Assembly: GCA_003246265.1 (NCBI GenBank)
Contig: QKAU01000002.1
Coordinates: 62,001-126,000, forward strand
Length of the DNA stretch: 64,000 nucleotides
Direction of reading: 5' to 3'
Source: Kiritimatiellales bacterium
GTDB lineage: Bacteria > Verrucomicrobiota > Kiritimatiellia > Kiritimatiellales > Pontiellaceae
Shown in pieces: positions 9,667 to 18,219 of the stretch (its first letter is position 1; each line of letters begins with the position of its first letter). The position numbers and the translations under genes are program-made. A model generated the notes under the pieces. The model worked only from the letters and a program-made list of their open reading frames with translations. It made no database searches and was not told the DNA's origin.

Positions 9667-11004
9667 TCACGCGGATGCCACTTTGGGTGTTGAATGCGCG
9701 GTCATCGCACGGAGGCGCCGCTTGAAGGTTTCGCGCCGCCAGGTAGTGAATTCGTCGGAGTAGAGCTCGCGGGCGAGAGCATGGAATCCGGCCCGCAGCG
9801 CTTCTCCTGTCATGCCGAGTGGCCGGAAGTTGAGATCGAACAGGGTGCACTTTTTCCAGTTGGTCGGCTCGATCAACCGGTTCCGAGCCTTGAGCCGGTC
9901 ATACAAGGCGGTGCCGGGGAAGGGGGTGAGGATGGTGATCTGCACCTCGTAGAGCTCGGTCTCGCGAACGAAGTCATGGATCTGGTCGAAGACGGCAGCA
10001 GTTTGACCGTCGAGTCCGACGATGAAACAGCCATTCACCGTAATCCCGTGAGATTGTATGGCCCGGATCGCCTGCCGGTATTCCCCGAAGCGCTTTTGTT
10101 TCCAGTTGCCATGCTGCTCAACGCCGTTGAGCGGCGATTCGGTAGGACTTTCGAATCCGATCAACACCTGGGCACAACCGGCCTCGCGCATGAGATGCAG
10201 CAGCTCGGAGTCTTCGGCCACGGAAAGGTCGGTTTCCGTGAACCAGCGCACATGGCGTTTTTTTAGTTCTGGAAGCAGCTCTTTCCAATAGGACTGGTTG
10301 ACGAAGCTGTTGTCGTCCGCGAACTCGATGAAAGGATGCGGCCAGATTTCGCAGATGCGGTCGACCTCGGCCAGCACCCTTGCCACGGGTTTCTGCTTGT
10401 AGCAGGAGGAGATCAGGTTCGATCCTGCGCAAAACTCGCAGCGGTGCGGGCATCCCCGGCTGGTCTGCACCGTGAGCCGGTTGTATTTTCCGATGTCGAG
10501 CAGCTCGTAGGCCGGCATGGGCGCATCAGCCAGGTCGTAGTGGAGTTCCCGGGCATCGTAGAAGAGCTTGAGGCAGTCGTTTTCGGCATCCTCGAGAAGC
10601 TGCAGCCAGACAGGCTCGCCTTCCCCCAGGACGACGGAGGTGCAGTACCTCCGCGCCTCGTGGGGGAGTGCGGTCACATGCGGTCCGCCCATCACGACCG
10701 GGACGCCGATGCCCCGGTAGCGCGACGCCAGTTCATAGGCTTCGCCGATCTGTGCGCTGTAGCTGGAGATCGCCACCAGGTCGTAGGGTTCCAGCGGCCC
10801 CTTCTCTGCATTCAGGTCGGGGATCTCGATGTAGTGGCAGTCATGACACCTTGGCGTCATGCCGGCGAGGGTCAGGAGCCCGAGGCTCGGCAGGGAGGCG
10901 ATCTGCCGGCTGCGCTCCACGAAGCCGGGAAGCGTAAGACCGAGTTCCAGCAGCTCGGTGTCGCAGGCGCGGATGCCACTCATGGCGATAAATGCGATTT
11001 TCAT
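9667..11004 (-). CDS. B12-binding-fold radical SAM enzyme
   Basis: 445-residue radical SAM protein. The N-terminal half has the cobalamin-binding-like fold (MGGPHVTALPHEA, LGEGEPVW) but no DxHxxG cobalamin ligand motif is visible. The core has the iron-sulfur signature CPHRCEFC (CxxxCxxC) and radical SAM repeats (FADDNSFV, IGFESPTE, FIVGLDGQT, TPFPGTALYDRL). The start is placed at ATG 11004, preceded by AAAGGATGG. Longer in-frame starts would run into the upstream gene. It is the last gene of the five-gene operon that begins with the LplT-Aas fusion. Relatives carry out methylations, hopanoid or tetrapyrrole chemistry; the substrate here is unknown. Confidence 0.85.
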   Translation of the reverse strand: MKIAFIAMSGIRACDTELLELGLTLPGFVERSRQIASLPSLGLLTLAGMTPRCHDCHYIEIPDLNAEKGPLEPYDLVAISSYSAQIGEAYELASRYRGIGVPVVMGGPHVTALPHEARRYCTSVVLGEGEPVWLQLLEDAENDCLKLFYDARELHYDLADAPMPAYELLDIGKYNRLTVQTSRGCPHRCEFCAGSNLISSCYKQKPVARVLAEVDRICEIWPHPFIEFADDNSFVNQSYWKELLPELKKRHVRWFTETDLSVAEDSELLHLMREAGCAQVLIGFESPTESPLNGVEQHGNWKQKRFGEYRQAIRAIQSHGITVNGCFIVGLDGQTAAVFDQIHDFVRETELYEVQITILTPFPGTALYDRLKARNRLIEPTNWKKCTLFDLNFRPLGMTGEALRAGFHALARELYSDEFTTWRRETFKRRLRAMTAHSTPKVASA

Positions 11005-11006
11005 GG

Positions 11007-11369
11007 CTACACCATCCTTTCGATGAAGAGTACGATGGAAACGAGGACCGCTCCCGCCGGGATGAAGAACAGATGCCGGCAAGGAGGGTGGAAAGCACTT
11101 GCATAGCAAACCGGGGGCATGGTGGCCGCCCCGGCCAGCATCAGGATCGACGCGGCAGGTGCGGCAATGCCGGTCGCGCACATCGTCAGTCCCATGCCCA
11201 GATTGAGAAATCCGAGCCCGAAAAAGGCAATGTGGGCCAGGCGGATCATCCGACGCGGCCAGGTGGCATAGCCGCCCAGCCATTCCGTCCGATGGAAAAA
11301 CAGGCCGGTAGCCGCCCCGGAAAGAGCACCCAGCAGAAAACCGATCCAGGCTGCAAGGATATTAGGCAT
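11007..11369 (-). CDS. Small polytopic membrane protein
   Basis: 120-residue protein with four hydrophobic segments (IGFLLGALSGAATGLFF, IAFFGLGFLNLGMGLTM, PAASILMLAGAATM and FIPAGAVLVSIVLFI) and a short loop containing HRTEW. I do not recognise a family. The start at ATG 11369 has AAGGAG 7 bases upstream and overlaps the aminotransferase stop by 8 bp. Its stop is 2 bp before the radical SAM start. The tight packing implies it works with its neighbours, perhaps as a membrane partner of the radical SAM enzyme. Confidence 0.75.
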   Translation of the reverse strand: MPNILAAWIGFLLGALSGAATGLFFHRTEWLGGYATWPRRMIRLAHIAFFGLGFLNLGMGLTMCATGIAAPAASILMLAGAATMPPVCYASAFHPPCRHLFFIPAGAVLVSIVLFIERMV

Positions 11370-12510
11370 GGCAGGGCTCCTTTCCCGTGGCTGCGACGAG
11401 CGCATCTTCCATGATCTCCAGCATGCGCTGGTTCGTTCGTGCGTCCTTCACGGCGATACGCAGGGCGCGGTCGCCCATGGCTGTACCCATCTCGGATGCA
11501 TCTCGGATGAAGAGCCCCCGGTTCCGGCACAGGCGGATCATGGATTCGCCGTCGGGGCCGCCATCGGGCAGATGGAAAAGGATAAAGTTGGCGATGCCCG
11601 GGATGATGTCCCGCATGCCGATTGCACGGAGGCCGGCCGCAAGCTGTGCCCGCAGAACGTGTGTTTCGCGGTAGCGCTGGGCGTAATAGCCCGTAGCCTG
11701 CAGGGCGTGAACGGCGGCGATTTGTGCGGGAAGGCTGACCGACCAGGGCGGCTGGAGGCCCCGAAGCGAGTCGATGTGACGACGCGGGCCGCACAAGTAG
11801 CCGACCCGCAGTCCGCTCAACCCATAGACCTTGGACATCGATTTGACCACCACGACATTGTTGGACGATGCGGCAAATGCTTCGAGAGATTGGCCTTTTC
11901 CGGCATACTCGACATAGGTTTCGTCGATCCAGAAACGGGTCGATGGGGGGCATTGCCGGATGATATCCTGCACCTCGCCGGGTACAACGTGCCTTCCCGT
12001 GGGACTGTTGGGATTGACCCATGCCACAAGGTCGAATCCGGTGGCCAGCGTTTTGGCAAACCGGAGGGGGTCGAACACATAGCCATCCTCGCGAAGGAGC
12101 CTGAAGCGTTCGACCCTGCAACCGACGACTTTCTGGAGGACGTGGACGTATTCGCCATACATCGGATCGAGAACCAATACGCGCGACGAGGGCGTCAGCC
12201 ATTGGCGAAACGCCGAGAAGATGAGCGGCGACGAACCGCCGGCCGCCAGAATGTGCTCCTTCGCCACCCCGCGGACTTCGGCAAGGGTTTCCACCAGCCC
12301 TTCGGCATGGTTGGGTGGCGAGGTGCCCATGATCCATTCCAAGTGGTCGCGGATGGCTTGGACTGCCGCTGGGCAGGGCGGGTACCAGGCGTCCAGGACG
12401 TCGGCGTTGATGATGTCGTGCCGCCGGGGCAGGTCGCCGAACCGGTTGCCGATGGCTTCGAAGAATGCCCCGCCGTGGTAGCATTCGGGCGATGCAATTG
12501 CGCTATTCAT
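11362..12510 (-). CDS. PLP-dependent aminotransferase, histidinol-phosphate aminotransferase-like
   Basis: 382-residue class I/II fold enzyme of the HisC/CobD type. Visible features are an Asn-rich substrate loop (WVNPNSPTG), the PLP-pyridine Asp in WIDETY, the PLP lysine in VKSMSKVYGLSGLRVG, and a C-terminal LRIAVKD containing the carboxylate-binding Arg. It sits inside the sigma-54-controlled operon, not near other his or cob genes, so biosynthesis of an amino-containing small molecule or lipid headgroup is more likely than histidine synthesis. That role is inferred. The start overlaps the upstream hydrolase by 8 bp and has GGGAG in range. Confidence 0.88.
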   Translation of the reverse strand: MNSAIASPECYHGGAFFEAIGNRFGDLPRRHDIINADVLDAWYPPCPAAVQAIRDHLEWIMGTSPPNHAEGLVETLAEVRGVAKEHILAAGGSSPLIFSAFRQWLTPSSRVLVLDPMYGEYVHVLQKVVGCRVERFRLLREDGYVFDPLRFAKTLATGFDLVAWVNPNSPTGRHVVPGEVQDIIRQCPPSTRFWIDETYVEYAGKGQSLEAFAASSNNVVVVKSMSKVYGLSGLRVGYLCGPRRHIDSLRGLQPPWSVSLPAQIAAVHALQATGYYAQRYRETHVLRAQLAAGLRAIGMRDIIPGIANFILFHLPDGGPDGESMIRLCRNRGLFIRDASEMGTAMGDRALRIAVKDARTNQRMLEIMEDALVAATGKEPCHA

Positions 12511-13261
12511 GGCTGTTCTCCCGTGGAGTGAAGGTTCCGTGTTCCAGAAAGTAGAGGGTTTCCCGAATCACATGGCGGTTCCACATCATCGTGGCATGGG
12601 TCGTGTGGAGTTCCACGCAGTCGCTAAAGTTCTCGGGGCGGACGCGGGCGAGAGCTACCTTGCCATCGTCCGGACCGGGAATCAGCAGGGAGAGAACCGG
12701 GTTGATCGAGCGGTCGCCCGCAATGATGCCCAATTCAAAATCCGGTACCTTCAGCCGGAGCGGAAGGCTGTCGGTTCCGGTGCCCAGCTGGTTCCCGGCC
12801 GGACCATTGATCCATCGGTAGAGAAAGGTTCCGCCCAGCTTGTCGGCCACTTCGCTCCCGCGGCTGGGAGGCGCTAGCATGACGACCCGGCCCAGGTTGG
12901 GCTGGGGATGCGTTTCGAGATGGTAGCGCAGCAGGATCCCTCCCATCGAGTGGGTGACGTAGTGGACGGTGTTCGATCCCTCGATGCGGGGCTGGAGATC
13001 CGTGAAGATCCGCTCCGACAAGCTCCCGATGGCAGCGCGGGTGGACGGATAGTCGATGTTGATGACGGTGTATCCTTCGCGCTGCAGCGCGCGGCCCAAC
13101 TTCTCCATGGATCTGCTAGACCGGGCAAGCCCATGCAGCAGGACGACGGTTGCGTTCCTGGCCGAGACGGCTTTTTCTGCTGTACTCGGAGTGCAGTGCG
13201 AGTCCGCCATGCCCATGAACACGATGGGTATGAAAAGAAAGATGGCTATGAGTATTTTCAT
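12503..13261 (-). CDS. Lipase-like alpha/beta hydrolase, exported or membrane-anchored
   Basis: 252-residue alpha/beta hydrolase of the triacylglycerol-lipase type. The N-terminus MKILIAIFLFIPIVFMGMA is a signal peptide or anchor. VVLLHGLARSS gives the oxyanion region, THSMGG the nucleophile serine, and the C-terminal HTTHATMM may hold the catalytic His; the probable Asp lies near PDDGKVAL. The start ATG 13261 shares ATGA with the stop of the upstream LplT-Aas gene and has GAGG upstream. A longer in-frame start exists but would lie within that gene. An extracytoplasmic lipase beside a lysophospholipid recycling enzyme suggests phospholipid deacylation followed by reacylation. Confidence 0.85.
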   Translation of the reverse strand: MKILIAIFLFIPIVFMGMADSHCTPSTAEKAVSARNATVVLLHGLARSSRSMEKLGRALQREGYTVINIDYPSTRAAIGSLSERIFTDLQPRIEGSNTVHYVTHSMGGILLRYHLETHPQPNLGRVVMLAPPSRGSEVADKLGGTFLYRWINGPAGNQLGTGTDSLPLRLKVPDFELGIIAGDRSINPVLSLLIPGPDDGKVALARVRPENFSDCVELHTTHATMMWNRHVIRETLYFLEHGTFTPRENSHE

Positions 13262-16200
13262 GCCGGCCTCGCGATCTTCCTGAGCGAGCACAGATCGAGC
13301 TTGCCGGAACCCAGCACGGGCAGCTCGGGTATGCGGAAGAAATTTGCGGCGCGCGGTATCCACAGGTTTGGCAGTCCAATGGCGCGGAGCCGTTCGATTA
13401 GCGCCTTCGGATCCCCGGCTTCGGGGGTGTAGCAAACCGCCAACTGCTCTCCCTTGCAGGTGTCGTCGATGCCTACGACGGCAACGCAGGGTTCGGCAGA
13501 TCCGGTGGCCTGTTGCAAGGCGTCTTCGACCGCACCGTGCGGGACCATCTCTCCGGCTATCTTGCTGAAGCGTGACAGGCGTCCGGTGACGAAGACGAAA
13601 CCATCCCGATCCACATGGGCGATGTCGCCGGTGTTATACCAGCCGCCACGCACGGTTTCAGCAGTCCTTTCAGGTTCCCCGACATAGCCCTGCATGACGC
13701 TGGGTCCCTTGATCCACATGAGGCCATCTTTGCCATCGGGAAGGATTTCATGCGTCACCGGATCAACGATGCGGACCGCAATGCCTGGCAACGGTAGTCC
13801 GGTGCTCCCGGGGCGGAAGCCGTTCGATGTGCTGAGAAGTGCAACCGGCGACAATTCCGTGCACCCGTAGCCCTCCAACGGACGGACGCCAAAGCGTTCT
13901 TCGAACCGGTCGGCCAGATCGATGCGAAGTTTTTCGCCACCGGCAATGACATGCTTCAGGCTGGCCAGGTCTTGGACGGAAGCCTTTCGCATGTAGGTTT
14001 GCAAAAAAGTCGGGGTCGCGAGCAGGGCGGTCAACCGCATCTCGCGGATAAGACGGATGATGCGGTCGGCCTGCAACGGGTTGGGATGATAGGCGACCGG
14101 AATGTTCTTCAGCAACGGCCACCAGAACAGCCCCAGATATCCAAAGGCGTGGAACAATGGAAGAATTGCGCATATCGAATCCTGTTTCCCAAGGTGCTGC
14201 AGCGCCTGCGTACCATCGACGTTGGACAGAATATTTGCATGACTGAGCAAGACTCCCTTCGGCCTGCCCGTGCTTCCGGAAGAGAAGATGATGGTGGCGG
14301 TATCGGACGGATTTGGTTCATGTCCCCCGGCCAGGTGTTTCGGAGACGCAAACAGTGCCGCTCGAACGGCACGGATACGTTCGATGCGTCCGAGATTCCG
14401 CAGCTCGTCTTCAAGGTAGAGCCAACGCACCTGCAGGTCAGGCCGGGCGGTTTTCTGGATGAAGCGGCGCGAGGTGATGACGTATTTGATGTCGGCCTGC
14501 CGGACAGCGTATTGCAGGGTTTCCGCTGATGTCGTCCAGTTCAGGTTGATGCTGGCTTTCCCGCTGAGCGTCACGGCCAGGTTGGCGAGGATGCCGCCAA
14601 GGGAGGTCGGCATGAAGATGCCGATGTTCTTCTGGTTGGAAGTACAGGGCGTTATGCGGTTTGAAAGCGCGATGCTGCCTGCCAGCAGCTTCCCGTATGT
14701 GGCGGAGTTGCCCATCGTGTCGGTGGCGATCGTGCGGAACCAGTTGAACCTTGCTTTGCGGATGAAGGCCTTGTTGAGTGTATTTCCGGGCATCAGGCTC
14801 TTCTCGATCGAATATTCGGCACCCAGCTCGGCGATGACCCTGCGGGCTTCATCCGCGGTGGTGTCCGCGGGCAACGCTTCGCCGAACCGCACAGAGACGG
14901 GGTAGGGAAACCTGAGCGGCCGTTTGAGTCCCGGTTTCCCTCGGTAGAAGCTGAAAATGCTCCCCCAAATATCGCCGATGTATGCCGGGATGATAGGGCA
15001 GCCTGTGTTGCGAGCGATTTTTTCGAAGCCCTTGCTGAACGGCATCAGGTTGCCATTGCGGGTTAGTTTCCCCTCGGGGAAGATCGCGACGATCGCCCCT
15101 TCCTCCAAAGCCCTGCGCGCTTCGTGCAGGGACTTTGCCAATGCGCGGGGTCCGTCCGAGGTGTGGATTGGAATGCAGTCGGTCAGCTGGAAAACAGGCT
15201 TCACCCATTTCCATGTCTTGAATACGTCGCGTGACATGATGAAGCGCACGGGGCGCGAGGTGGCCGCCTGCAGCAGCAGCGCATCGGCATAGGCTGTGTG
15301 GTTGCATATCAGCAGTGCACCTCCCTCGCACGGCAGGTTGTCGATCCCCTGGAAGCGAATCTTATAGATCCGGTTGACCATGCGCATGAGGCAGAACCGC
15401 ACGAAGAACCCTGGCAGGTACACGCAGGCAATCACGGCGGGAACAGCGGCCAGAAGGCCTGTGACGAATATGCAGGTGGTCGACGTGAAATGAAGGTGCA
15501 TGGTCATGACGTAGAAGAATCCTGAGGAGGCCACCATGGCGCTGAAACTCAGGAAACCCGACGCTCCGAAGACCTCGCCCCTCCGATCCGCAGGGATTCG
15601 ATGCTGCAGATAGGCGTTGAGGGGAACCAGGTACATGCCGCAGCAGGCGCCAAGAGCAACAATCCAGGCACCTACCCACACGGGTGACTGCGTGGCTGCC
15701 AAGACAATTGAGCAAACCATGATCCCGATGGCGCCGACCGGTATCAGTCCGATTTCTATCGTGTGCCTGGACAGCTTACCGGTCAGCAATGCGCCGACAC
15801 CGATGCCGATGGCGGCCAACGGGAAGAGCATGGGACTCTTTTCCACGGACAATCCCAGCACCTCCTTGCCGAAGATAACCAGGGTCTGCTGGAAAAGGGC
15901 GGAGATGGCGCCAAAGAGGACGAGTCCGAGAACGGCCAGCATGGCCCATCGGTCGGATTTCAGGTTTCGAACGGCGCGAACGACATCGGGAATGATCAGG
16001 GGTGAAGATTTCTTGTGCGCGCCAGCCGCCGGTACGGGTGCGATTCGCGTGGAAGCAACGAGGCCGGCGATGGCAACCAGACCGCAAGAGGCAACGGAAT
16101 AGAGGGGACTCAGCCCCATGTATCCGGTTAGAAGCGATGGCAGGGCGGTGCCGAGGATGATGGCTGTGTAGGTTGCCGAGGTGAGGAAGCCATTGGCACG

Positions 16201-16596
16201 AGAAAGTTCAGTCGTAGCGACCAGCTCCGGAACAATTCCGCGTTTTGCGGGACCAAAAAGGGCGCTTTGCGTGCAGATCAGGAAGAGCAAAGCATAGACC
16301 GGTATCGCCTGGCCGGCCAAGACAACCGGTACGGCCAGCACCAGAAGCGCCACCTCGAGCCACTTGCTTGCAATAATGATGTCGCGCTTGCTGTATCGAT
16401 CCGCGAGCGTACCTGCCACATTCGAAAACAGAAGGAAAGGAAGAACGAATAAGGCCGAGCAGATGGCGAGTACACTAGGGAGGCTGCCATCACCTAGGTT
16501 TGCCACAAGAACCATGACCGCCGTCATCTTAAAGGCGTTGTCGTTGAAAGCCCCGGTACACTGGCTCACGTTCAACCATTTGAAGGTGTTCATCAT
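13258..16596 (-). CDS. LplT-PlsC-Aas fusion: lysophospholipid transporter / acyltransferase / acyl-ACP synthetase
   Basis: 1112-residue three-part membrane protein. Residues 1-400 are a major-facilitator transporter with the LplT-type start (SQCTGAFNDNAFK). Residues 420-600 are a PlsC acyltransferase with the HX4D motif NHTAYAD (432-438) and FPEG (506-509). Residues 630-1112 are an AMP-forming acyl-ACP/CoA synthetase with FSSGSTGRPKG (771-781), GYGCTE (909-914), NTGD and the C-terminal Lys in RFSKIAGE. Such fusions import lyso-phosphatidylethanolamine and reacylate it, tasks split between LplT and Aas in E. coli. It is the first gene of the operon, with GGAG 6 bases before the start and a sigma-54 promoter upstream. 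Confidence 0.92.
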   Translation of the reverse strand: MMNTFKWLNVSQCTGAFNDNAFKMTAVMVLVANLGDGSLPSVLAICSALFVLPFLLFSNVAGTLADRYSKRDIIIASKWLEVALLVLAVPVVLAGQAIPVYALLFLICTQSALFGPAKRGIVPELVATTELSRANGFLTSATYTAIILGTALPSLLTGYMGLSPLYSVASCGLVAIAGLVASTRIAPVPAAGAHKKSSPLIIPDVVRAVRNLKSDRWAMLAVLGLVLFGAISALFQQTLVIFGKEVLGLSVEKSPMLFPLAAIGIGVGALLTGKLSRHTIEIGLIPVGAIGIMVCSIVLAATQSPVWVGAWIVALGACCGMYLVPLNAYLQHRIPADRRGEVFGASGFLSFSAMVASSGFFYVMTMHLHFTSTTCIFVTGLLAAVPAVIACVYLPGFFVRFCLMRMVNRIYKIRFQGIDNLPCEGGALLICNHTAYADALLLQAATSRPVRFIMSRDVFKTWKWVKPVFQLTDCIPIHTSDGPRALAKSLHEARRALEEGAIVAIFPEGKLTRNGNLMPFSKGFEKIARNTGCPIIPAYIGDIWGSIFSFYRGKPGLKRPLRFPYPVSVRFGEALPADTTADEARRVIAELGAEYSIEKSLMPGNTLNKAFIRKARFNWFRTIATDTMGNSATYGKLLAGSIALSNRITPCTSNQKNIGIFMPTSLGGILANLAVTLSGKASINLNWTTSAETLQYAVRQADIKYVITSRRFIQKTARPDLQVRWLYLEDELRNLGRIERIRAVRAALFASPKHLAGGHEPNPSDTATIIFSSGSTGRPKGVLLSHANILSNVDGTQALQHLGKQDSICAILPLFHAFGYLGLFWWPLLKNIPVAYHPNPLQADRIIRLIREMRLTALLATPTFLQTYMRKASVQDLASLKHVIAGGEKLRIDLADRFEERFGVRPLEGYGCTELSPVALLSTSNGFRPGSTGLPLPGIAVRIVDPVTHEILPDGKDGLMWIKGPSVMQGYVGEPERTAETVRGGWYNTGDIAHVDRDGFVFVTGRLSRFSKIAGEMVPHGAVEDALQQATGSAEPCVAVVGIDDTCKGEQLAVCYTPEAGDPKALIERLRAIGLPNLWIPRAANFFRIPELPVLGSGKLDLCSLRKIARPA

Positions 16597-16637
16597 GTTC
16601 CGCTCCGATCCTGTTTACTCGCTACGGTTTGGACAAT

Positions 16638-16653
16638 TGCACGGGACGTGCCA
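16638..16653 (-). promoter_or_regulatory. Sigma-54 (-24/-12) promoter of the LplT-Aas operon
   Basis: The minus strand reads TGGCACGTCCCGTGCA. The -24 element TGGCACG is a perfect consensus match and the invariant GG and GC doublets are separated by exactly 10 bases. The -12 box is GTGCA where TTGCA is ideal. Transcription would start near 16627, leaving a leader of about 30 bases with a GGAG ribosome site. A sigma-54 activator gene starts 100 bp away in the opposite direction, which strongly supports the call. Confidence 0.88.
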
Positions 16654-16659
16654 TCGATT

Positions 16660-16676
16660 GCATTGATGTGCAATGC
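16660..16676. promoter_or_regulatory. Inverted repeat GCATTG-N5-CAATGC beside the sigma-54 promoter
   Basis: A perfect 6-bp dyad lies 7 bp upstream of the -24 element. The position is closer than a usual enhancer site (80-150 bp), so it may be a repressor or accessory-factor site rather than the activator's own. Confidence 0.4.
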
Positions 16677-16746
16677 GCTCTGGGGGAATGAATTGCGAAA
16701 TATATCATATAGATTGTGCGATGTTAATATAGACAATTAATGAATA

Positions 16747-16767
16747 ATATGCATGCATATATGCATG
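16747..16767. promoter_or_regulatory. Overlapping AT-rich palindromes at the activator start codon
   Basis: A 14-bp perfect palindrome (ATATGCATGCATAT, 16747-16760) overlaps a 16-bp perfect palindrome (CATGCATATATGCATG, 16752-16767). Together they cover both candidate start codons of the activator and lie about 100 bp upstream of the sigma-54 promoter. That is a normal distance for an activator-binding enhancer and would also allow autoregulation. The 16680-16750 stretch is markedly AT-rich compared with its surroundings. Confidence 0.5.
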
Positions 16768-18219
16768 AGTGAGTCTTTCTTCCAGATGGTGGCCGAAGCG
16801 GCGTTCAGCAATCCGTTCGGGGCGCGGCGCGTGGAGGCGGATCGCCGGATCGTTGGTGCATCGGCCGATGCCGGATGGCACGACATGCTCGCGCCGCTGT
16901 TGTCCGAACTGGCTCGGCACCTGGATGAGCTTGGGGTGGGCGGCCGCATCAAGGTGAGGCCGGAGGGGAGCGAGCAGGAGCGCGCTGTTGCGGTCGGTGT
17001 CCTGTTCCATGTCTTCCACCAGTACATGGAGCATTTCGATCGCCTTATCGAGCAGCAGATCGAGGAGGGCGACGAGCCCTGCCCGGCACCGTTCGCCATG
17101 GAGTGCACGCAGGCGCTTTGCCGCTATGGATACGGCCGCGCCGATGCGCTGCGCTATGTCGGCATGTTCTACCAGATACGCCGGGCCTACTTTTTCATAT
17201 CGAGGACCCTGGTGGGCGCAAGTCCATGCATGAGGAATTTCAGGGCGCGGCTTTGGGACAACATCTTTACCCACGACATCGCATGGTACGAGCGATGCCT
17301 CTGGAACCGGATGGAGGATTTCTCGACCTTGCTCCTCGGCGAAACCGGTACGGGGAAGGGCGCGGCGGCGGCAGCTGTCGGGCGCTCGGGCTTCATTCCG
17401 TACAATCCGAACACCTGGAAATTCGCCGAGAGTTTCACCAGCGCGTTTGTCAGCATCAACCTCTCCCAGTATCCGGAAACCCTGATCGAGTCGGAGCTCT
17501 TTGGCCATCGAAAAGGCGCCTTTACCGGGGCGATCGAGCAGCATGACGGCGTCTTCGCCCGTTGCAGCCCGTACGGCGCGATCTTTCTCGACGAGATCGG
17601 GGACGTTGGCATCCCCGTCCAGATCAAGCTGTTGCAGGTGCTGCAGGAACGCACCTTCACTCCGGTCGGCAGTCACGAAAAACTGCGATTCAAAGGGAGG
17701 GTCATCGCGGCCACGAACAGATCGCTGGATCAACTCCGGCGGGCAGGCTCCTTTCGCGACGACTTCTACTACCGACTCTGCTCGGACCTCATCACGGTTC
17801 CTTCGCTGCGCCAGCGGCTCAGGGAGGATCCGGCCGAGCTGGAGGCCCTGACGGAGCACATCATGCAGCGCATCTGCGGGCAGGGCCTTGGCCTGCCAGT
17901 TTACGAAATACTCAAGCGGAACATCGGCAGGAACTATGCATGGCCGGGCAACGTGCGCGAACTCGAACAGGCGATCCGCCGCATCATGCTCACCGGAACC
18001 TATGGCGGGGATCGCTCTGCGGCATCTGCCCCGGAGGGGGATGTCGGCGACGCCATGCAGGCCGGGCAGCTGAGCGCGAAGGATCTTGTGGCCCGCTACT
18101 GCCGGGATCTCCATGACCGCTTCGGAAACTATGGCGAAGTGGCGCGCCGCACCGGTCTGGACTGGCGCACCGTGAAGAAGTATGTTTCGGAGCAGCATGC
18201 GCAGGAAGAGAAGAGATAG
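16753..18219 (+). CDS. Sigma-54-dependent transcriptional activator with uncharacterised sensor domain
   Basis: 488-residue bacterial enhancer-binding protein. Residues 1-170 form an alpha-helical, Cys/His-containing N-terminal domain that I do not recognise; it is not an obvious receiver, PAS or GAF domain. The AAA+ domain has Walker A GETGTGKG (196-203), the sigma-54-contact loop GAFTGA (255-260), Walker B FLDEIGD (278-284) and an RDDFYYRL sensor region. The C-terminus is a Fis-type helix-turn-helix (NYGEVARRTGLDWRTVKKYV). ATG 16753 and ATG 16765 are both possible starts; neither has a Shine-Dalgarno. It is divergent from the LplT-Aas operon and presumably activates its sigma-54 promoter. 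Its 3' end overlaps the nuclease gene by 23 bp. Confidence 0.93.
   Translation: MHICMSESFFQMVAEAAFSNPFGARRVEADRRIVGASADAGWHDMLAPLLSELARHLDELGVGGRIKVRPEGSEQERAVAVGVLFHVFHQYMEHFDRLIEQQIEEGDEPCPAPFAMECTQALCRYGYGRADALRYVGMFYQIRRAYFFISRTLVGASPCMRNFRARLWDNIFTHDIAWYERCLWNRMEDFSTLLLGETGTGKGAAAAAVGRSGFIPYNPNTWKFAESFTSAFVSINLSQYPETLIESELFGHRKGAFTGAIEQHDGVFARCSPYGAIFLDEIGDVGIPVQIKLLQVLQERTFTPVGSHEKLRFKGRVIAATNRSLDQLRRAGSFRDDFYYRLCSDLITVPSLRQRLREDPAELEALTEHIMQRICGQGLGLPVYEILKRNIGRNYAWPGNVRELEQAIRRIMLTGTYGGDRSAASAPEGDVGDAMQAGQLSAKDLVARYCRDLHDRFGNYGEVARRTGLDWRTVKKYVSEQHAQEEKR

Follow-up and report, generated by a model that had tools for sequence, protein, structure and literature searches.

A predicted sigma-54 promoter and its facing activator gene ahead of a fused LplT-Aas operon in a Kiritimatiellales bacterium

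Analyzing a 64,000-nucleotide stretch of DNA from a Kiritimatiellales bacterium (the window), we find that the motif ahead of a fused LplT-Aas gene is very probably a real sigma-54 promoter, judging from its sequence and from its relatives. The initial annotation had claimed such a promoter for the LplT-Aas operon, and the claim gains support: the genome carries rpoN, the gene facing the site encodes a sigma-54 enhancer-binding protein (bEBP), and the GG-N10-GC signature is kept in relatives. The site appears to belong to a larger divergent module of activator, operator and promoter, missed in the initial annotation, which recurs with other downstream genes. The coordinates are listed in Table 1.

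Table 1. Features of the predicted module and operon (positions in the window)
Feature	Position	Strand	Basis
Predicted sigma-54 (-24/-12) promoter TGGCACGTCCCGTGCA; predicted transcription start ~16627	16638..16653	minus	Sequence, genome-unique exact match, conservation in relatives
Dyad 2 (TCATTAATTGT on minus strand), predicted bEBP site, 90 bp upstream of the -24 element	16733..16743		NCA-N5-TGN core at fixed place in relatives
Dyad 1 (ATGCATATATGCAT), predicted bEBP site abutting the bEBP start codon	16753..16766		Position homologous to relatives' dyad 1
Sigma-54 enhancer-binding protein (bEBP)	16765..18219	plus	PF00158 (E 6.4e-43), alignment, motifs, model; ORF opens at 16753
Ribosome-binding site GGAGCGGAA of LplT-Aas	16598..16606	minus	Sequence and conserved block in relatives
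Fused LplT-Aas: MFS lysophospholipid transporter-like, PlsC acyltransferase and AMP-binding acyl-ACP synthetase domains	13258..16596	minus	Pfam, PRK08633
Alpha/beta hydrolase	12503..13261	minus	Pfam (longer frame), coordinates; 4 bp overlap with LplT-Aas
PLP-dependent aminotransferase	11362..12510	minus	PF00155 (E 2.7e-34), coordinates; 8 bp overlap with hydrolase gene
Small hydrophobic protein	11007..11405	minus	Coordinates; 44 bp overlap with aminotransferase gene
B12-binding radical SAM protein; closes the tight operon	9667..11004	minus	Start by homology

The site, the facing activator and the operon

Reading the minus strand from 16653 to 16638, we find the TGGCACG and GTGCA elements that had been pointed out earlier, with the GG-N10-GC spacing exact. 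The consensus for sigma-54 -24/-12 elements is TGGCAC / TTGCW-like with GG-N10-GC, and the site matches 11 of 12 positions in the window's intergenic stretch; a site this good arises there at a rate of 0.0005 (2000 dinucleotide shuffles). The proposed distances also hold. The site lies 41 bp from the LplT-Aas start codon (ATG at 16596), and the 100 bp to the divergent activator applies to the first ATG of the facing ORF (16753), while the distance to the bEBP start codon conserved among orthologues (16765) is 111 bp. Directly upstream of the -24 element lies a palindrome, ATTGCACATCAATGCAAT (ATTGCA-N6-TGCAAT, 16657-16674); it is absent from the relatives in the alignment and was therefore treated as incidental rather than as a functional part.

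The initial annotation had made its claim hang on the presence of rpoN, and the genome contains one rpoN match (PF04552, E 7e-59). Its frame is full-length and ends in ARRTVAKYRDQL, which we take to resemble the RpoN box. Scanning the genome for other -24/-12 sites, as had also been suggested, we saw no enrichment of the consensus. The exact pattern TGGCACG-N5-TGCA (TGGCACGNNNNNTGCA, 0 mismatches) has a single occurrence in the 2,997,214-base genome. Allowing up to one mismatch, we count 43 genome sites for TGGCACGNNNNNTGCA versus 65 for the reversed control. The loose consensus TGGCACRN4TTGCW with up to three mismatches gave an uninformative 127 matches in the window versus 145.6 expected, and the loose counts for both window and genome were dropped as evidence for want of enrichment. 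As the consensus is not enriched genome-wide, the site taken alone would be weak, a fair guess; the strong evidence for the promoter comes from the comparison of relatives.

The divergent neighbor had been described as a sigma-54 activator, and we recognize it as a bEBP: it has the Walker A and GAFTGA motifs and a helix-turn-helix-like C-terminal end. In the alignment of bEBP orthologues (A1), GAFTGA is invariant, the Walker motifs were located, and the C-terminus is helical with a conserved EVARRTGLDWRTVKK, without a Pfam helix-turn-helix match. No Pfam or NCBIfam family worth naming matches the N-terminal domain, which spans about 180 residues. AlphaFold2 predicts a compact all-helical fold for it (pLDDT 89.8). 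Its fold search brought up no solved structure that stood out among the re-aligned chains (best Z 4.7), and searching solved structures with a sequence profile yielded a single weak match, to a circular tendon repeat protein (E 0.0005). The full-length bEBP model was poor in the AAA+ part, and the fold search from that model was set aside. We rejected the protein as PspF (TIGR02974 equivalog, 147.9 bits versus a curated cut-off of 443.55) and as RtcR (NF038308 equivalog, 181 bits versus a curated cut-off of 650), both matches covering the AAA+ part only. A membrane-stress signal for this bEBP is our guess from the target genes.

On the other side of the promoter, LplT-Aas has Pfam matches to MFS, PlsC and AMP-binding domains in that order (38-356, 412-540, 627-971). 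It scores 1163.4 bits against PRK08633 over nearly its full length, below the curated cut-off of 1221, so we treat it as a close relative of PRK08633 with a predicted function assigned from domain content, not as an equivalog. Given the overlaps of 4, 8 and 44 bp and the 2 bp gap between the small-protein and B12 radical SAM genes, LplT-Aas, hydrolase, aminotransferase, small protein and B12 radical SAM probably form one operon. Relatives of the small hydrophobic protein (cluster 4) also follow in the genus operon, and the radical SAM protein shares a cluster with L101:7885-9222, which matches PF04055 and PF02310. In some genus relatives, DUF2157 and GDYXXLXY genes make up the operon end.

Conservation of the layout

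For 16 LplT-Aas genes linked to the bEBP, we read the 260 bp upstream (G038 in full). GG-N10-GC is kept in all 16, and in eight of them the site is TGGCA[C/T]ACCCTGTGC. The first T is replaced in G039 and G038, and G038 also has a small ORF separating LplT-Aas from the promoter. Aligning 15 rows, we see the TGGCA and TGC columns preserved against otherwise diverged sequence, as are the ribosome-binding site and the dyad cores. The best GG-N10-GC score among 12 LplT-Aas homologues (about 40-46% identical) not beside the bEBP was 8/12; since none exceeded 8/12, the site goes with the bEBP and not with LplT-Aas as such.

The layout was defined on a first set of 33 bEBP upstream regions, 29 from related genomes and four from other phyla (L110-L113). 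These four were the ones that matched over nearly the whole bEBP among at least 80 loci from a contig scan with general AAA+ motifs; their records are named as MAGs of Betaproteobacteria, Methylococcaceae, Sandaracinus and Sumerlaeota, and misbinning is possible. Outside the 33 stood a C-terminal fragment in G023 (L091), a second fragment in G013, and G077, which was later placed among the 17 new loci described below. A GG-N10-GC site of 8 to 11 of 12 is present in 30/33 regions, and 22/33 place it at a distance of 110-114 bp from the start of the bEBP. A pair of NCA-N5-TGN dyads spaced by exactly 22 bp and no more than 80 bp from the bEBP start was found in 22/33 regions, with 0.01 expected from shuffles; no other dyad spacing from 12 to 44 bp appeared more than twice among the 33. 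The window's own dyad pair is weaker than those of its relatives (6/8 core bases). We found no promoter site in the upstream regions of G015, G048 and G002 (3/33); G002 keeps the site before LplT-Aas, with other DNA separating it from the bEBP start. On this comparison, bEBP orthologues of other families and of a few other phyla have one layout, a predicted dyad pair beside the bEBP start and a -24/-12 site about 112 bp on. The putative on-switch, that is, the promoter with the regulator gene, is conserved in many relatives of this bacterium and, in looser form, in a small number of distant bacteria.

We also examined loci not used to define the layout. The N-terminal domain profile matched in 55 of 288 genomes of the phylum, and 17 previously unused loci among those with DNA fetched made up the new set; the second N-terminal match seen in G132 is not part of it. 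Sites scoring 9/12 or better lie 95-130 bp from dyad 1 in 8/17 new loci (0.07 expected by shuffling), and the same stretch holds TGGC[ACG][CT] in 13/17 (0.59 expected). Counting a site of at least 9/12 anywhere in the upstream stretch gave 10/17, and no promoter was found at G269 and G077 among the 17. Five of the new loci (G170, G179, G185, G211, G270) have TGGCA[C/T] with GT or GA replacing GC. At L204, L217, L219, L220 and L221, the would-be -12 element reads GT/GA, and both TGGCA[C/T] and the dyads are retained. These GT/GA forms may be variants or degraded sites, possibly a lineage variant of the sigma-54 -12 element. Taking both sets together, 25 of the 36 rows that could be scored place the -24 element 111-113 bp from dyad 1.

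Searching this genome with the composite pattern TGTC-N74-86-TGGCAY-N6-TGC gave three matches including the window's site. C5:193957 was rejected as a regulon member for having no dyad of the NCA-N5-TGN type at the expected place, and the third match, read by eye, is C5:143822. At L192 (G000:C5:193957-194049), a candidate sigma-54 site, TGGCATGTTTGATGCA, lies a short way upstream of a 494-aa ORF whose product looks, as judged by eye, like circularly permuted ATP-grasp proteins; the bEBP dyad spacing is absent there, and a long palindrome, CATACATTAATGTATG, is found further upstream.

A proposed mechanism and its rivals

Our favored reading, in which we have high confidence, is that a genuine sigma-54 promoter forms the output end of a divergent bEBP module, the bEBP binding the dyads, driving the five-gene operon and probably repressing its own gene. 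The promoter motif, the layout, its conservation, rpoN, the activator motifs and the operon overlaps can be read directly in the DNA. The bEBP made from the facing gene would bind the two dyads (~16733-16766), which start 90 and 112 bp upstream of the -24 element, and would contact sigma-54 RNA polymerase by DNA looping. The activated promoter would then drive the LplT-Aas / hydrolase / aminotransferase / small protein / B12 radical SAM operon, for which we infer a role in membrane-lipid remodelling or repair. The bound bEBP would also repress its own gene, much as PspF does at pspF-pspA. On the bEBP strand, many rows read TRGACA-N16-TATACA over the dyads with the start codon about 8 bp on, and this -35/-10-like reading was made in 40 of 50 aligned rows, chosen by core score. 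As the -35/-10-like pair lies under the dyads and directly before the bEBP start, the bEBP probably represses its own overlapping sigma-70 promoter, and the leader would be short or absent.

The same hexamers allow another reading, that the dyads spaced 22 bp apart are only the -35/-10 boxes of the bEBP's own promoter, with the bEBP binding other sites or not being the activator of this promoter. Many rows do show TRGACA-N16-TATACA on the bEBP strand, and the sum of 6 and 16 gives the 22 bp. However, the half-sites outside the boxes (the CA of each dyad) are equally conserved in the 40/50 rows of high core score, a selection that favors this result, and in G249 and G173, where the dyad pair is not next to the start codon that was chosen, it still lies 112-113 bp from the -24 element. 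We consider this reading unlikely. Driving of the operon by an ordinary sigma-70 promoter further upstream, with an incidental -24/-12 match, seems to us very improbable. The window does contain a 10-of-12 sigma-70-like match with a TG before its second hexamer on the same strand (16727-16699), a score that shuffles reach in 0.02, whereas the best scores in the other 14 of the 15 aligned rows are 6 to 9 of 12, in varying places and ordinary for shuffles; the -24/-12 columns of this alignment are kept where the sigma-70-like match varies. Sigma-70 and sigma-54 promoters could coexist in this genome.

The window's copy of the site is also partly palindromic, and its GCACG-N3-CGTGC inverted repeat might make the -24/-12-like block an operator for another regulator. 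Across the 15-row alignment, in which GG and GC were not required (the selection of sites for the wider stack did demand them), the inner palindrome is lost, but TGGCA and TGC with their fixed gap are kept. The site moreover stands in the facing orientation at a fixed distance from the dyads, and we give the operator reading hardly any credence.

Relation to known systems and genes across the promoter

The sigma-54 promoter with its divergent bEBP is best read, by analogy, as a PspF-pspA-like module, resembling PspF in its working and not PspF by model score. At E. coli pspF-pspA, passages of PMC3709507 describe sigma-54 output together with negative control by PspF of its own sigma-70 promoter via the same sites. 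In both systems the bEBP gene and its target point away from each other, with enhancer sites (predicted ones here) in the stretch between them and a sigma-54 output, and one far relative of the module (L111) faces a PspA/IM30-like gene. Unlike PspF, the bEBP here has the extra N-terminal domain of ~180 residues and scores 148 bits versus 443.55; the module's targets are mostly not pspA, and we identified no PspA partner or IHF site.

The LplT-Aas protein shares its domains with the LplT-Aas lysophospholipid recycling system, here fused in one protein; the E. coli genes form an operon of separate proteins. Passages of PMC11416262 mention fused forms as uncharacterised and make no mention of sigma-54 control. 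The initial annotation had known of no description of sigma-54 control of an LplT-Aas-type gene, and in open-licence PMC full text we likewise found no report of it, nor of sigma-54 with VIT proteins or in Kiritimatiellota. A study linking sigma-54 to lipid, lipopolysaccharide, lipoprotein and exopolysaccharide genes, and portraying it as a controller of the bacterial exterior (PMC3162934), has a theme that membrane-lipid genes here would fit; 'acyltransferase', 'Lentisphaer' and 'Verrucomicrobi' are absent from its main text. In layout, the module also compares with the one-component bEBPs of Desulfovibrio vulgaris, which according to parts of PMC4641369 have inverted-repeat sites upstream of neighboring sigma-54 operons, including one for phage shock and one for lipid A; by contrast, the main text of that paper has no acyltransferase or phospholipid.

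Across the promoter, LplT-Aas is the gene found in the genus. Elsewhere, the position is held by MFS genes that are LplT-like by eye (G155, G249), LplT-PlsC (L112, sequence read), PlsC (G173), VIT/VWA proteins (G054, G072, G207, G321, G257, G231, G145; a VIT fragment in G047), DUF2157 (G303, G132), a methyltransferase (G055, by cluster also G043), B12 radical SAM (G064), a BadF-type ATPase (G045), Big_5/Kelch (L110), and the PspA/IM30-like protein of L111 (32.3 bits versus a cut-off of 33.9). Membrane and lipid functions, as predicted for these genes, recur among the targets without exhausting the list.

Tentatively, the bEBP family might be an unrecognised envelope-stress switch parallel to PspF, with a new N-terminal sensor, self-repressing dyads and a sigma-54 outlet that carries lineage-specific membrane-care genes (LplT-Aas, PlsC, PspA-like, VIT/VWA, DUF2157), the same kind of signal controlling lysophospholipid repair here; we hold this as possible rather than probable. 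If true, the genes for lysophospholipid recycling would have an inducible regulator of their own, and a family of bEBPs would be defined whose cis layout is fixed and whose sensor domain is uncharacterised. The layout would let targets be read from genomes: wherever the N-terminal domain is found, the gene across the promoter is the likely target.

Two observations concern individual genomes. G010 (L109) has the bEBP and the promoter and lacks both LplT-Aas and the hydrolase; its promoter faces the aminotransferase-radical SAM genes, which we read as a natural target change within the genus. The aminotransferase (11362-12510) stands alone in the window; in G005 (L102:8126-9853), it is fused to a weak match to FeeM N-acyl amino acid synthase (25.7 bits, cut-off 27), a fusion that hints at an N-acyl amino lipid.
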